Shown: positions 5,682 through 62,856 of the stretch, piece by piece
How the letters are laid out: each line of letters opens with the position of its first letter
Numbering within the stretch: the stretch's first letter is position 1
Source of the DNA: Paenibacillus aceti
GTDB taxonomy: Bacteria > Bacillota > Bacilli > Paenibacillales > Paenibacillaceae
Reading direction: 5' to 3'
Assembly (NCBI RefSeq): GCF_003614185.1
Contig: NZ_KZ987724.1
Span: 3,345,379-3,409,378, forward strand
DNA: 64,000 nucleotides
Position numbers and translations under genes: made by a program
Notes under the pieces: model-generated
What the model was told of the DNA's origin: nothing
The model's database searches: none
The model's input: the letters and a program-made list of their open reading frames with translations, nothing else

Positions 5682-6629
5682 CTAGACGGTTAGCTGCAGC
5701 CTGCTGAGCTGCCAGGTTCTTACGCTCAGATAGCATAATACGCCGAACAGCGAGGCCAACACGACAATATGGGCAAGTGAGGTGAATAGGTAGACGTTGT
5801 AATTAGTCAAGGTAAGTGCAATCCCGGCTCCCGTGAACACCTGAATGATAATCAGGACCGTGGCGGCAATCCCCAATTTGCGAATCTCCTTATGATGCGG
5901 GTGCTTCCAATAAGCCAAATGCCCGACCAGCGCAATCAGCGCGAGCAGCAGCAAGGCTGCGATCCGGTGCATAAAGGCAATGCCCGTCCCCCCGCTCAGA
6001 TCCGGGATCAGCTCATTGTTACAGAGCGGCCAGCCGCTACAGCCTCCCGCTGAATCCGTATGGCTGACATAGGCTCCTATGTATACGACGATATAAGTAT
6101 AAATCGTGGCGAACCAAGTCAAATTGCGAAATCTGGCCGATACGGGATAAAGGGGGACCCCTGCCGACTGTGGTGTGGCATTCTTCTCCGCGATTTCTTC
6201 CTGCCGGACCCCTAGCGCGAGCATAATCGAACTGGCAAAAGCGACCAGCGAAAAACCGAAATGGAGCGCCATTACACCGGATGAAGTCGGGTAAATCACC
6301 GCCATCGCCCCCATGAAGGCCTGGACCATTACGAAAATAAGCGCCAGCAAAGCATAGAACTGCAAATCCTTGCGCTTCTTGCGGAACATCCAGAAGGCTA
6401 CGAAGGCACCGACCGCCAGCAAGCCCGCAGCTCCGCTGATAGCCCGATGGGAATATTCAATCATCGAAGCCAGCGTATGAGCAGGGACGAACTTCCCGTG
6501 ACATAGCGGCCATTCATTGCCGCAGCCCAGGCCCGACTCCGTCTTCGTCACCACACTCCCGCCCAAGGTTGCGAGAAACATAACAAAACAGGACAAGTAA
6601 CTAAGCCATTTCAAATGCTTGGTCTTCAA
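5682..6629 (-). CDS. ctaA: Haem A synthase CtaA
   Basis: A 315-residue membrane protein with eight predicted transmembrane segments. It converts haem O to haem A for cytochrome aa3 oxidase. The first extracellular loop has the paired cysteines and Glu of the Bacillus-type enzyme (TESGLGCGNEWPLCHG). The second half has a matching CSGWPLC loop. Conserved haem-ligand histidines appear in EYSHRA, ALHFG, FMHRI and LAHIV. It starts with TTG behind AGGTGAG. The partner enzyme CtaB is encoded about 19 kb away with a Sco protein. Confidence 0.95.
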   Translation of the reverse strand: MKTKHLKWLSYLSCFVMFLATLGGSVVTKTESGLGCGNEWPLCHGKFVPAHTLASMIEYSHRAISGAAGLLAVGAFVAFWMFRKKRKDLQFYALLALIFVMVQAFMGAMAVIYPTSSGVMALHFGFSLVAFASSIMLALGVRQEEIAEKNATPQSAGVPLYPVSARFRNLTWFATIYTYIVVYIGAYVSHTDSAGGCSGWPLCNNELIPDLSGGTGIAFMHRIAALLLLALIALVGHLAYWKHPHHKEIRKLGIAATVLIIIQVFTGAGIALTLTNYNVYLFTSLAHIVVLASLFGVLCYLSVRTWQLSRLQLTV

Positions 6630-7163: not shown

Positions 7164-7332
7164 AGCTTTTCATTCCTCTCTCATATCGTGTATTTCCCAA
7201 ATCGATGTATCTCTAGTCAACCAAATTGAAGTGTGGAAGTCAAATGTTTCGAGCATACTTATAACATCAGAAATTATCGACATGATTTACTACTCCAGAC
7301 CATTATTACGGTGACGAAAGTGAGGTTTACCA

Positions 7333-8670
7333 ATGACGCAGCAGATTCCCCCTGATCCCGAGAGCACGAACAAAGACGGTCTGAAAAAATTGATCCTTCG
7401 TCTTCCAATAGTAATTGGCGAAGCTGTTAAAGACAAAGCTGCACAATGGTCGGATTCCAGCAAATTAAGGGAAGAGCGGGTCGCACTCGAGTGGAACGAA
7501 GCCACAGTTAATGCCGTTAAAACGGAAATTGAGGATTTGCTGCGCCGTAAATTCGCACATGGAGGCCTCGCGGAGACATGGACGGAGGACGAACTGCAGC
7601 TTGCCGAAGAGATTGCTAATGCTACCCGCAAGTCGGAAATCAGCAATATCACCCGCACCGAAGCCTACTGGACGATATATGAGCAATACCCTGAGCTACA
7701 TTGGGCTTTCCTAGCTCATATGGTATCGCGCAATGCTGGCTGGTGGATGACCGACCTCAAGGGGAGCAGGTTGCAAAATGTACTCGATGAAGAAGAGAAA
7801 AAATCCATCTATCGTTTTTTTGAGCGCAGTAATGCGCTTATTTTCCAAGATGCCTACCCGCAGCTCCTACTATACTCCAAGAGCCGCGAAATTGGCCGAA
7901 GCTTGTTCCACCTGCTTCCTTACTTCCATGTTTCCCGCTTCATGGAGCCATTTTGGCAGAGGTTCTGGATCGACCGCAGCAGTCCGCTGCTGACCGTCGG
8001 GCTTATTATAAATGAGCAGAACTATATAGATAAACAGGTATTTCGTCATCCGCATTATCAAATATCCTTGGATGAGATCCATGAATCATTTCTGATTCAA
8101 TTGCTTAGTATGAATCATATAATATTCCCGCTGCTCGAGAACAGCGGGAATATATACGGACTCAAGCAACAGGAGTCTGCAGCCAGCGGGCGAGACTGCC
8201 CTGAATCTTACGCTGCGCACCGTTTGGCCGGTCGCAGCGTCATCAACCCGGTCAGTCTGCCCGCCCGCATCGCGCTAGGCAAGAGCCTATACGCGATGCT
8301 GTTCGGGCTGCGCGCCGTGCACAGCGGCGCGCAGCGCTTCGCCGCGTGCGTGCCGCACACCGGCTCGCGCGCGGACTATTGGCCGGACCTGTTCACGGCC
8401 AATAAAGCAGAAGCTCTGACCCCTGTACGTGAGGGGTCAGAGCTTCCACAGGGCGAGACGCTGCCCGCAGGCCAGCGTCTCTATAGCCCCAAGCTGCTGG
8501 ACGCTTGGGGCGATGCCCCCTATGAACCAATCCTACGCGAGGATTGGTTCAAGGACCACAGCGCGCTGGATGGCATCAGCGCGCCGCAGCCGCCATACCT
8601 GTGCGACGTCAGTCGCGAGCACAGGTATGGCGTCATGCGGTCGGCGTTCCCGGAGGGCGCCGCCGACTAA
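7333..8670 (+). CDS. DUF2515 (YppC-like) protein with a hairpin-rich 3' end
   Basis: A 445-residue protein of unknown function, similar to Bacillus YppC as I recall it. The N-terminal ~265 residues carry aromatic-rich conserved blocks (SNITRTEAYW, PELHWAFLAHMVSRNAGWWM, SPLLTVGLIINEQNYI). Later blocks ARIALGKSLY and VPHTGSRADYWPDLF look like conserved C-terminal family motifs. Between and after them are Gly/Ala/Ser/Pro-rich stretches encoded by many perfect inverted repeats (see 8122-8667), and GC content rises sharply there. The gene ends 12 bases from the end of the converging flippase gene, with no normal terminator between them. Confidence 0.75.
   Translation: MTQQIPPDPESTNKDGLKKLILRLPIVIGEAVKDKAAQWSDSSKLREERVALEWNEATVNAVKTEIEDLLRRKFAHGGLAETWTEDELQLAEEIANATRKSEISNITRTEAYWTIYEQYPELHWAFLAHMVSRNAGWWMTDLKGSRLQNVLDEEEKKSIYRFFERSNALIFQDAYPQLLLYSKSREIGRSLFHLLPYFHVSRFMEPFWQRFWIDRSSPLLTVGLIINEQNYIDKQVFRHPHYQISLDEIHESFLIQLLSMNHIIFPLLENSGNIYGLKQQESAASGRDCPESYAAHRLAGRSVINPVSLPARIALGKSLYAMLFGLRAVHSGAQRFAACVPHTGSRADYWPDLFTANKAEALTPVREGSELPQGETLPAGQRLYSPKLLDAWGDAPYEPILREDWFKDHSALDGISAPQPPYLCDVSREHRYGVMRSAFPEGAAD
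8122..8667. repeat. String of perfect inverted repeats inside the DUF2515 coding sequence
   Basis: Perfect stems, given as arm coordinates: 8122-8133/8142-8153 (12 bp), 8307-8317/8325-8335 (11), 8410-8424/8432-8446 (15), 8455-8463/8473-8481 (9), 8486-8494/8503-8511 (9), 8524-8534/8540-8550 (11), 8561-8568/8577-8584 (8), 8591-8604/8619-8632 (14), 8640-8646/8661-8667 (7). Loops are 5-14 bases, and from 8410 on the hairpins follow one another almost without gaps. All lie in frame within one open reading frame. Arm sequences differ from hairpin to hairpin, so this is not a sequence repeat. Confidence 0.9.
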
Positions 8671-8682
8671 AGCCGCTCGCAT

Positions 8683-10326
8683 TTACATCGTTCCGCCAGT
8701 GCCAGTACGCGCCGAACCGCGCTGCAAACGCATGAGCGGGCGGAACACTTTTTGCAGCGCTCGCGGATAATTCCCTAGCTCGTCCTTCCGGACCACTCGC
8801 AGCACGACCAGCAGCACCGGATAGAGCGCTACGACAGCTGTGCCGACGATACAGCAGGTCAGGAAGAAGGCGATCCGGCCAGGCATGAAGGCTTCCATGC
8901 CGATGCCGAGCTGATTCAGTCCATAACCAACTCCCGCTAACAACACGACGGTAAGCAGAAATCCGCCCCAGCGTCCTTCCATGATCGAGAACGGAACAAT
9001 CAGTTTCATCGAACGCAGATTAAGCAAAGTGATCACGAGGAAGCACAACGCTGTAGCGATTATAATTCCGTAGATGCCCAGCAGCGGAGCCAGCGCATAG
9101 CTGGCCACCAGCTTGACGATGATCCCGATAATTACATGCACCATCGAGAGCGTGGCCTTGTTGATGCCCAGCAGGATCGAATTACTGGTCATCATCGTAA
9201 TTTGAAAGATCGTCGCAAAAGTAAGCATAGCCACAATACCGCTGCCATCACGAGTACTGAACAGCAAGCCGTTCACGGAGTAAGCCGCTGTTCCGAGCGC
9301 GAGGATGATCGGCATGCCCGTAAGCACAGCAACCTGCATCGCCAGCGTAACTTGGCGCTTCAAATGCGCCTGATCCCCGCGAGCGAAGGCCGCGGAAATG
9401 ATCGGCACCAACGACTGGCTTAGCGCAATCGCCAGGATCGGCGGTATCCCGGCGATCATTTGCGCCCGGTTGCCGAGAATCCCCAGTACATAAGTCGCCT
9501 CAACCGGACCGATCTGTCCTGACAAAAGCGGCTTCAGAATCGAATTATCGATGAAATTCACCGCCGACACCGTCATCGAGGAGACGACGATCGGGATCGA
9601 TAGCTTGAAGATCTCCGCATAGATGTGGCCATAGGATATCTTGGCCTGTCCCTCCTGAACTTGCAGCTGCAGCTCCATCCGGTCCTTGCGGCGCACCTTC
9701 ATATTGTAATAGAGCATGACCAGCAAGGCAGCCACCCCGCCGATAACCGCGCCGAAGGTAGCCCCGGCGGCGATTTTCTCGCCAGAATATCCCCAATGAT
9801 AGAACAGGAAAGCCAGAACCAGTCCCGTCCCGACGCGGACGATTTGTTCAATCACCTGCGAGATCCCGCCGGCGATCATAATGTTGCGCCCCTGCAAGTA
9901 ACCGCGGATAATCGCAATCAACGGGAACAGCAGCAAGGCAGGCGCCAGCGCCCGGATCGTCACCGCTGTCTCAGGAATCCCTGAAGCACGGGCATACGCC
10001 GGTGCAAACATATACAGCAGCACAAACATCACGATGCCGGACACAGCTGCGAACATCAGCCCGGCATGATAGATTCGTCTCGCTTCCATAGGACGGTTCA
10101 GCGCATGCCGCTCGGATACCATTTTACTTAATGTACTAGGAATCCCTGCCGTCGCAATGGTCAGCAGCATGAAATAAGCGGCATTTGCCTGGGAGTAGGA
10201 GGCGTTCCCGATATCCCCCAGAATATGCTCCAGAGGGACGCGCTGGAACAAGCCCAACACTCTGGCGATCAATGCCGCTCCGGCAAGAATTAACGTGCCT
10301 TTAATGAAAGATTCTTTCTTAGACAA
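8683..10326 (-). CDS. MurJ/SpoVB-family flippase (MATE-like)
   Basis: A 547-residue polytopic membrane protein with about 14 hydrophobic segments, in the MOP superfamily. The opening segment (GTLILAGAALIARVLGLFQRVP) and the PSTLSKMVSE block match the YtgP/SpoVB/MurJ group, which flips lipid-linked cell-wall precursors. It starts with TTG behind AAGGAA. It could be lipid II flippase MurJ (YtgP type) or a sporulation paralogue; sequence reading alone does not decide. It is followed by a basic tail and converges on the DUF2515 gene. Confidence 0.8.
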   Translation of the reverse strand: MSKKESFIKGTLILAGAALIARVLGLFQRVPLEHILGDIGNASYSQANAAYFMLLTIATAGIPSTLSKMVSERHALNRPMEARRIYHAGLMFAAVSGIVMFVLLYMFAPAYARASGIPETAVTIRALAPALLLFPLIAIIRGYLQGRNIMIAGGISQVIEQIVRVGTGLVLAFLFYHWGYSGEKIAAGATFGAVIGGVAALLVMLYYNMKVRRKDRMELQLQVQEGQAKISYGHIYAEIFKLSIPIVVSSMTVSAVNFIDNSILKPLLSGQIGPVEATYVLGILGNRAQMIAGIPPILAIALSQSLVPIISAAFARGDQAHLKRQVTLAMQVAVLTGMPIILALGTAAYSVNGLLFSTRDGSGIVAMLTFATIFQITMMTSNSILLGINKATLSMVHVIIGIIVKLVASYALAPLLGIYGIIIATALCFLVITLLNLRSMKLIVPFSIMEGRWGGFLLTVVLLAGVGYGLNQLGIGMEAFMPGRIAFFLTCCIVGTAVVALYPVLLVVLRVVRKDELGNYPRALQKVFRPLMRLQRGSARTGTGGTM

Positions 10327-62812: not shown

Positions 62813-62856
62813 AGAATAATAAAACACTCGCTTAAAAGCGAGTGTTTTATTATTCT
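62813..62856 (-). terminator. Terminator of the tRNA operon
   Basis: A 21-bp perfect inverted repeat (AGAATAATAAAACACTCGCTT and its complement) with a 2-base loop. The T-rich lower stem and position 16 bases after the last tRNA mark the end of the minus-strand tRNA transcript. Confidence 0.9.

Follow-up and report, generated by a model that had tools for sequence, protein, structure and literature searches.

A chain of perfect hairpins inside a DUF2515 gene of Paenibacillus aceti, and GC-rich islands in other genes: correction between arms or a selected fold?

A string of stems at the end of a gene

Why should the last part of a protein-coding gene consist of perfect inverted repeats, one after another, with the reading frame kept open throughout, and what might keep their arms exactly complementary? 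The question is raised by a locus in the window (the whole stretch of DNA that was analysed: 64,000 nt of Paenibacillus aceti, assembly GCF_003614185.1, contig NZ_KZ987724.1, positions 3,345,379–3,409,378, forward strand). The gene (7333–8670, plus strand) is an open reading frame of 445 aa with a strong match to DUF2515 (PF10720, E 6.3e-69), and it converges on a polysaccharide biosynthesis gene (8683–10326, minus strand; an ORF with a match to PF01943), the two stops (8670 and 8683) having 12 bases between them. When stems were counted as perfectly paired arms of at least 7 bp enclosing loops of 3–20 bases, there were 12 in the final 550 bases of the gene (8122–8667), nine of them within 8307–8667; the initial annotation had claimed at least nine and eight, respectively. 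Its arm lengths (7–15) and its statement that the stems differ in sequence also held, but the loops range from 5 to 17 rather than from 5 to 14. The jump in GC content that it reported is real: values of 0.42–0.51 give way to 0.65–0.67 on entering the chain.

The number of stems is far beyond chance. Codons 264–445 contain 12 stems, eight of them with arms of at least 9 bp, whereas 300 synonymous-codon shuffles of the same codons gave a mean of 1.24 stems and never more than six (for arms of at least 9 bp, a mean of 0.22 and a maximum of 2), and 300 shuffles of codon order gave a mean of 0.89 and a maximum of 5. The codon-shuffled control that had been proposed for this locus thus never reached the observed count. 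Across the window, the densest 550-base stretch is the chain itself (11 stems with arms of at least 8 bp); no other site in the window comes close, and the best 15 stretches by stem density all overlap the chain. GC at third codon positions is 0.77 in the arms and 0.83 in the remainder of the chain. Elsewhere in the window, a lone strong 20-bp hairpin (62813–62856) is perhaps an ordinary terminator.

The chain opens with a 12-bp stem (8122–8153, loop 8) found in its exact form only here, with shorter stems nearby in a few relatives, followed by an 8-bp stem (8210–8240, loop 15) common to few species. For the helices beyond these, the fractions given here are Watson–Crick pair cells among all pair cells over 25 species of the same genus: H2 (8267–8299, 8 bp, loop 17; 211/225), H3 (8307–8335, 11 bp, loop 7; 188/200), H5 (8377–8404, 9 bp, loop 10; 220/250), H6 (8410–8446, 15 bp, loop 7; 329/350), H7 (8455–8481, 9 bp, loop 9; 205/225), H8 (8486–8511, 9 bp, loop 8; 222/225), H9 (8523–8551, 12 bp, loop 5; 236/250) and H10 (8561–8584, 8 bp, loop 8; 198/200). 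The last two are H11 (8591–8632, 14 bp, loop 14; 257/325), which varies among relatives, and H12 (8640–8667, 7 bp, loop 14; 136/200), which is weak in them. H6 includes compensatory changes that alter residues, the one facing a GCT, GCA or GCG alanine codon being E, V or A, and in H9 GAA or GAG is accompanied by F or L, respectively, on the paired side (GAA/TTC in the window, GAG/CTC in most relatives). Judging from these codons, in both helices it is the residues that follow the pairing.

The chain across relatives and the constraint on its pairing

DUF2515 was matched in 83 of the 99 genomes searched (the own genome included), and 39 of the 41 genomes from within the genus had a match. Most of the stems lie at identical codons in 25 species of the genus whose frame is intact, and the arms fall inside conserved blocks of the protein, not between them as had been supposed. 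These 25 were drawn from 29 chain-bearing genomes, broken or split copies (L003/L010, L006/L047, L034 and L039) being excluded; in the four further same-genus genomes (G003, G012, G031 and G032) the chain is partial or lies in a broken copy, and it is absent from the remaining ten that have the gene. On a tree of the rest of the DUF2515 protein (39 rows), the presence of the chain requires two changes, and its history is most simply read from these sequences as one probable gain and one loss (in L027, on a long branch). Stem-poor or stem-free relatives (L020, L024, L026 and L057) align through the region with no gaps at the stems, and one of them (L026) retains H6. L064 and L069, two copies from families elsewhere in the order, have different stems in the equivalent part of the gene. 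No arm in the relatives' chains exceeds 16 bp. In three relatives (L036, L037 and L038), DUF2515 has long in-frame Ala/Gly-rich expansions, of up to 596 aa, right before the chain.

Pairing is strongly maintained across the 25 species: of 2800 pair cells, 2432 are Watson–Crick, 63 G–T, 65 A–C and 240 other, and sliding one arm by one to three columns reduces the Watson–Crick cells to 644–840. The pairs that vary most as matched pairs are those between two third codon positions (seven of 14 with at least two Watson–Crick types, two fixed); of the remaining 98, 49 are fixed and 11 have at least two types. In all of 12 independent sister pairs, divergence was lower at paired than at unpaired sites. 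Fourfold sites changed between sisters in 28 of 466 cases in the arms (0.06), compared with 89 of 500 in the rest of the chain and 474 of 1426 (0.33) upstream, and when the arm sites were split by the codon position that they face, the figures were 8/111, 9/209 and 11/146; such approximately equal slowness, whatever position is faced, fits restoration by the partner arm. Two-sided changes between sisters numbered 18 (nine from one Watson–Crick pair to another), where about 2.7 would be expected if the sides were independent. The same comparisons contained 68 one-sided mismatches against the nine clean two-sided swaps, so any correction is not fast. The protein is also unusually alike in the region: when the N-parts are 0.60–0.70 identical, the C-parts are 0.75 identical between species that have the chain and 0.49 between those that lack it, in pairs that are not independent of each other.

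Which molecule might fold? Folding z-scores are strong for both strands in all 25 species (sense, −6.8 to −13.3; antisense, −5.5 to −15.5), and the raw folding energy is lower for the sense strand in ten of the 25. The difference between sense and antisense is 4.6, against 8.7 in synonymous shuffles, which slightly favours the sense strand. Deviant pairs between sisters comprise 22 G–T, 11 A–C and 35 others. RNase P RNA, counted in the same way in 30 same-genus genomes (fetched from among 40 of 41 with matches, these being below the family cut-off, and with a predicted structure), gave 34, 10 and 15, with 26 two-sided swaps. Among distinct types of core pairs, the G–T share is alike in the two (12 of 36 in the chain, 20 of 55 in RNase P). 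The overall G–T share (63 of 2800 cells in the chain, 289 of 2930 in RNase P) was left out of the evidence, because the chain helices had been chosen for perfect pairing and their low value is biased by that choice. A search of 7200–8900 against Rfam gave a single chance match (E 4.8) and no credible RNA family. Taken together, the strand and G–T results give a mixed picture as to RNA. The earlier suggestion that the stems protect the mRNA fares unevenly, being weakened by the near-equal folding of the two strands and somewhat helped by the lean of the mismatches towards G–T.

GC-rich islands in other genes

The scan for other ORFs with such strings, recommended in the initial annotation, was rewarding. 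In 800 kb sampled from the P. aceti genome there are three more dense chains, in hisH, in a two-half dynamin gene and in what we take to be a hook-length control gene. All sit in GC-rich islands, in a genome with 48.6% GC; in 864 kb, 15 islands reach 63% GC or more; four of them have five or more stems (arms of at least 8 bp) and six none. A genome-wide excess of stems was considered and rejected, since 719 ORFs have 579 stems against 626 expected (minus the top 12, a selected remainder, 499 against 604), in a set from which hisH is missing, having been displaced by a longer overlapping frame, and in which the N-interrupted hook-length-like gene is present only as an opposite-strand frame.

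In 200-kb samples from six other genomes, GC-rich coding chains were found in sua5 (G019), in sbcC (G018) and in a gene that we presume, from a TsaD-family match, to be tsaB (G036). A glycosyltransferase gene of G019 has a further one, with four stems, and the sample from G060 contains two weaker ones. The samples from G006 and G088 had no GC-rich coding chain, yet G006 has a chain in its DUF2515 gene (L038), so small samples miss islands. Chains in unrelated genes are present in the samples from four of the seven genomes (the own genome and six relatives), with weaker ones in those from a fifth and none in those from two. Some low-GC clusters (L192, L196:11051 and L198:951) were rejected as coding chains, as they resemble terminators or short repeats.

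Three of these genes were followed across relatives. In the 30 of 41 hisH copies that were counted, there are nine stems in P. aceti, five or six in its three nearest relatives and one to seven in the other 26, with shuffle means of 0.8–2.1; some protein motifs, for example in hisH, yield short stems in almost every copy examined. For the dynamin gene, 30 of 40 matching genomes were fetched and the 24 longest copies analysed: 22 have a GC peak of 0.69–0.85, mostly near the junction of the halves (in L259 and L264 the peak is just 0.63), and the stem count of the GC-richest 600 bases is above the mean of 60 shuffles in 23 copies and above their maximum in 15. Among tsaB copies, sampled from 30 of 40 matching genomes (in 11 copies a stop close to the start of the match cuts the frame short, and L237 is partial), 15 full copies at GC 0.63–0.70 have one to ten stems, and three near 0.50 have none. 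The host genes of the chains have no evident common function.

Draft assemblies also seem prone to break at the islands. By our reading, in seven of 41 genomes (G005, G007, G013, G020, G022, G025 and G039) the junction of the two halves of the dynamin gene coincides with a break in the assembly, the gene being either divided over contigs or truncated where a contig ends. In two species DUF2515 is broken by an insertion inside the chain (L034, 2434–2549; L039, 1907–2097). The insertion in G032 holds 73 bp that match, at 84% identity, part of a gene like that at 5682–6629 of the window, about 1.9 kb upstream, and the one in G012 holds 171 bp that match, at 98% identity, a stretch lying about 3.4 kb downstream; the imperfect identity of these apparent copies argues against simple misassembly. 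Runs of N occur inside the DUF2515 chain of Paenibacillus sp. GM2 (L003) and inside the chain of the hook-length-like gene of P. aceti (L101).

What might keep the arms complementary?

We favour the view that the chain is a GC-rich hairpin island in whose arms exact complementarity is maintained chiefly at the level of DNA, by hairpin-templated correction, and put its probability at a little under one half (about 0.47). When the DNA became single-stranded during replication or repair, each segment of the chain would fold back on itself, and a mutation in one arm could be rewritten from its partner, by template switching or by mismatch repair within the stem. Both arms being protein-coding, the surviving changes would be those tolerated in both, so that the arms and the residues that they encode would become locked. 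Self-templated correction is preferred to selection for a folded molecule as the maintainer, at slightly less than even odds, because the two strands fold nearly equally, the freezing of silent sites is independent of codon phase, the hosts are unrelated, the chains lie in GC-rich islands, and the DUF2515 chain of two species contains insertions copied from nearby DNA; the pattern is suggestive of a process at work on the DNA by which the sequences of DNA and protein alike are locked. A more tentative extension would make the islands a class in unrelated genes, in which arms serve as repair templates for each other and mutational drive, not protein selection, freezes silent sites and protein over the lifetime of a genus.

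Several observations stand against correction. Inversion of the loop is a known trace of template switching, and there were no inversions in 5467 comparisons for DUF2515 or in 559 for tsaB, and two in 2690 for the dynamin gene. One-sided mismatches are many, the arms lack a GC bias, and deviants lean to G–T. Unpaired sites in the chain are also slow, beyond what correction of the arms alone explains, and the positions fixed across the 25 species look functional. The sense-strand gain over shuffles and the RNase P-like G–T share of core types count against correction too.

Nearly as likely, and ranking close behind, is that the stems are selected for a folded molecule, either an mRNA structure (in ribosome pausing or nuclease protection) or a DNA structure. 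Compensatory change and constraint on silent sites would then be the ordinary marks of a functional fold, as in structured RNAs of coding regions, and the occurrence of the same helices in 25 species, the slow fourfold sites of the arms (0.06 against 0.33 upstream), the higher C-part identity of chain species (0.75 against 0.49, with the non-independence already mentioned), the excess of G–T over A–C deviants, the slight gain of the sense strand and the RNase P-like core types are all in its favour, as is the position of the dynamin island near the junction of the halves, where pausing could aid folding. Unlike such RNAs, however, the chain folds about as well in antisense; its sister deviants have a lower G–T share than RNase P RNA, its hosts have no evident common function, it has no credible Rfam match, and it has been lost in L027.

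The other explanations have far less to commend them. It is very unlikely that the chain stops transcription from both sides between the convergent genes, as had been proposed. The 12-base gap is as described, but the accompanying remark that there is no ordinary terminator needs qualifying, as one stem (8407–8449) is followed on the minus strand by a T-rich tail; a stem followed by a T run, the form of an intrinsic terminator, is no commoner in the chain than chance allows (two found, 1.8 expected), and other genes carry their chains mid-gene. Moreover, the distance to the neighbour is independent of the chain in the sequences compared: measured to its aligned part, spacing is −12 and 17 bases in the chain-free L020 and L024, and from 3 (L042) to 1691 (L005) in chain species. 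The location of coding chains in GC-rich islands, and motifs such as those in hisH, might suggest that the stems come about incidentally, through the choice of GC-rich codons or through the residues to be encoded; shuffles that preserve both protein and codons give about one-tenth of the stems, though, in six of the 15 GC-rich islands stems with arms of at least 8 bp are absent, and most of the pairing is missing from relatives whose residues are similar, which makes this origin exceedingly improbable. The idea with practically no credit left is that of mobile palindromic elements inserted in frame. Rickettsial palindromic elements are insertions of a repeat family, and the many differing palindromes within one frame do recall them. 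Here, however, stem-poor and stem-free relatives can be aligned ungapped, codon for codon, through the segments that encode the hairpins, so the homologue alignment that had been called for indicates that these segments are not insertions; the stems are unlike each other, and the only matches of the gene's DNA in its genome, at E ≤ 0.001, are to itself and, on the opposite strand, to one of its stems. According to the Discussion of PMC6649704, rickettsial elements lose repeat identity over time.

In published work, the nearest case appears to be the coding palindromes of hairworm (Nematomorpha) mitochondria, perfect inverted repeats inside protein-coding genes (Mikhailov 2019, PMC6649704). The likeness extends to arms that both encode conserved residues, to some positions common among species, to drops in read coverage and assembly trouble, and to template switching, which its authors also consider. 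The 110 hairworm repeats, from four species, are longer (at least 15 bp, mean 43 bp, where DUF2515 arms are 7–15 bp in the window and at most 16 bp in relatives) and lie in AT-rich mtDNA, not in tight chains within GC-rich islands of bacterial chromosomes; and unshared positions account for at least 48 of them, whereas most DUF2515 stems are common to 25 species. As to transcription and translation into a working protein, which belong to the hairworm type, DUF2515 shows an open frame and conserved residues. Correction of quasipalindromes by template switching is described in two papers (PMC8604942, PMC8794818) as making imperfect arms perfect with alteration of coding sequence, and as able to create and maintain hairpins. 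The excess of two-sided complementary changes is like this (a selected fold would give it too), as is copying from nearby templates, seen in the two insertions (in assemblies, not reads); the absence of spacer inversions is not, and those cases, so far as described there, are separate mutation events rather than a dense conserved array. Paenibacillus goes unmentioned in the main text of PMC10434271, no paper on DUF2515 was found, and the open-access literature yielded no report of such hairpin chains in bacteria.

Should arms indeed be corrected from one another, conserved silent sites and compensatory substitutions, which are usually taken as proof that an RNA structure is functional, could arise without function, and the DNA could raise the conservation of the protein that it encodes. 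Selection for the folds, on the other hand, would mean that a common bacterial genus possesses structured coding segments of a class for which the open-access search found no description. On either reading, the islands are open to test in cultured strains.

Finally, we draw attention to two points about particular hosts. The products of tsaB (L159, 18120–19046) and sua5 (L198, 15716–17026) belong to one tRNA modification pathway; the two chains are in different species, and this is perhaps chance. The product of sbcC is a subunit of a nuclease that cuts DNA hairpins, and the gene itself has 13 stems against six in shuffles in one species and a dense GC-rich chain in another (L107, 12635–16093; L174, 6970–10380).
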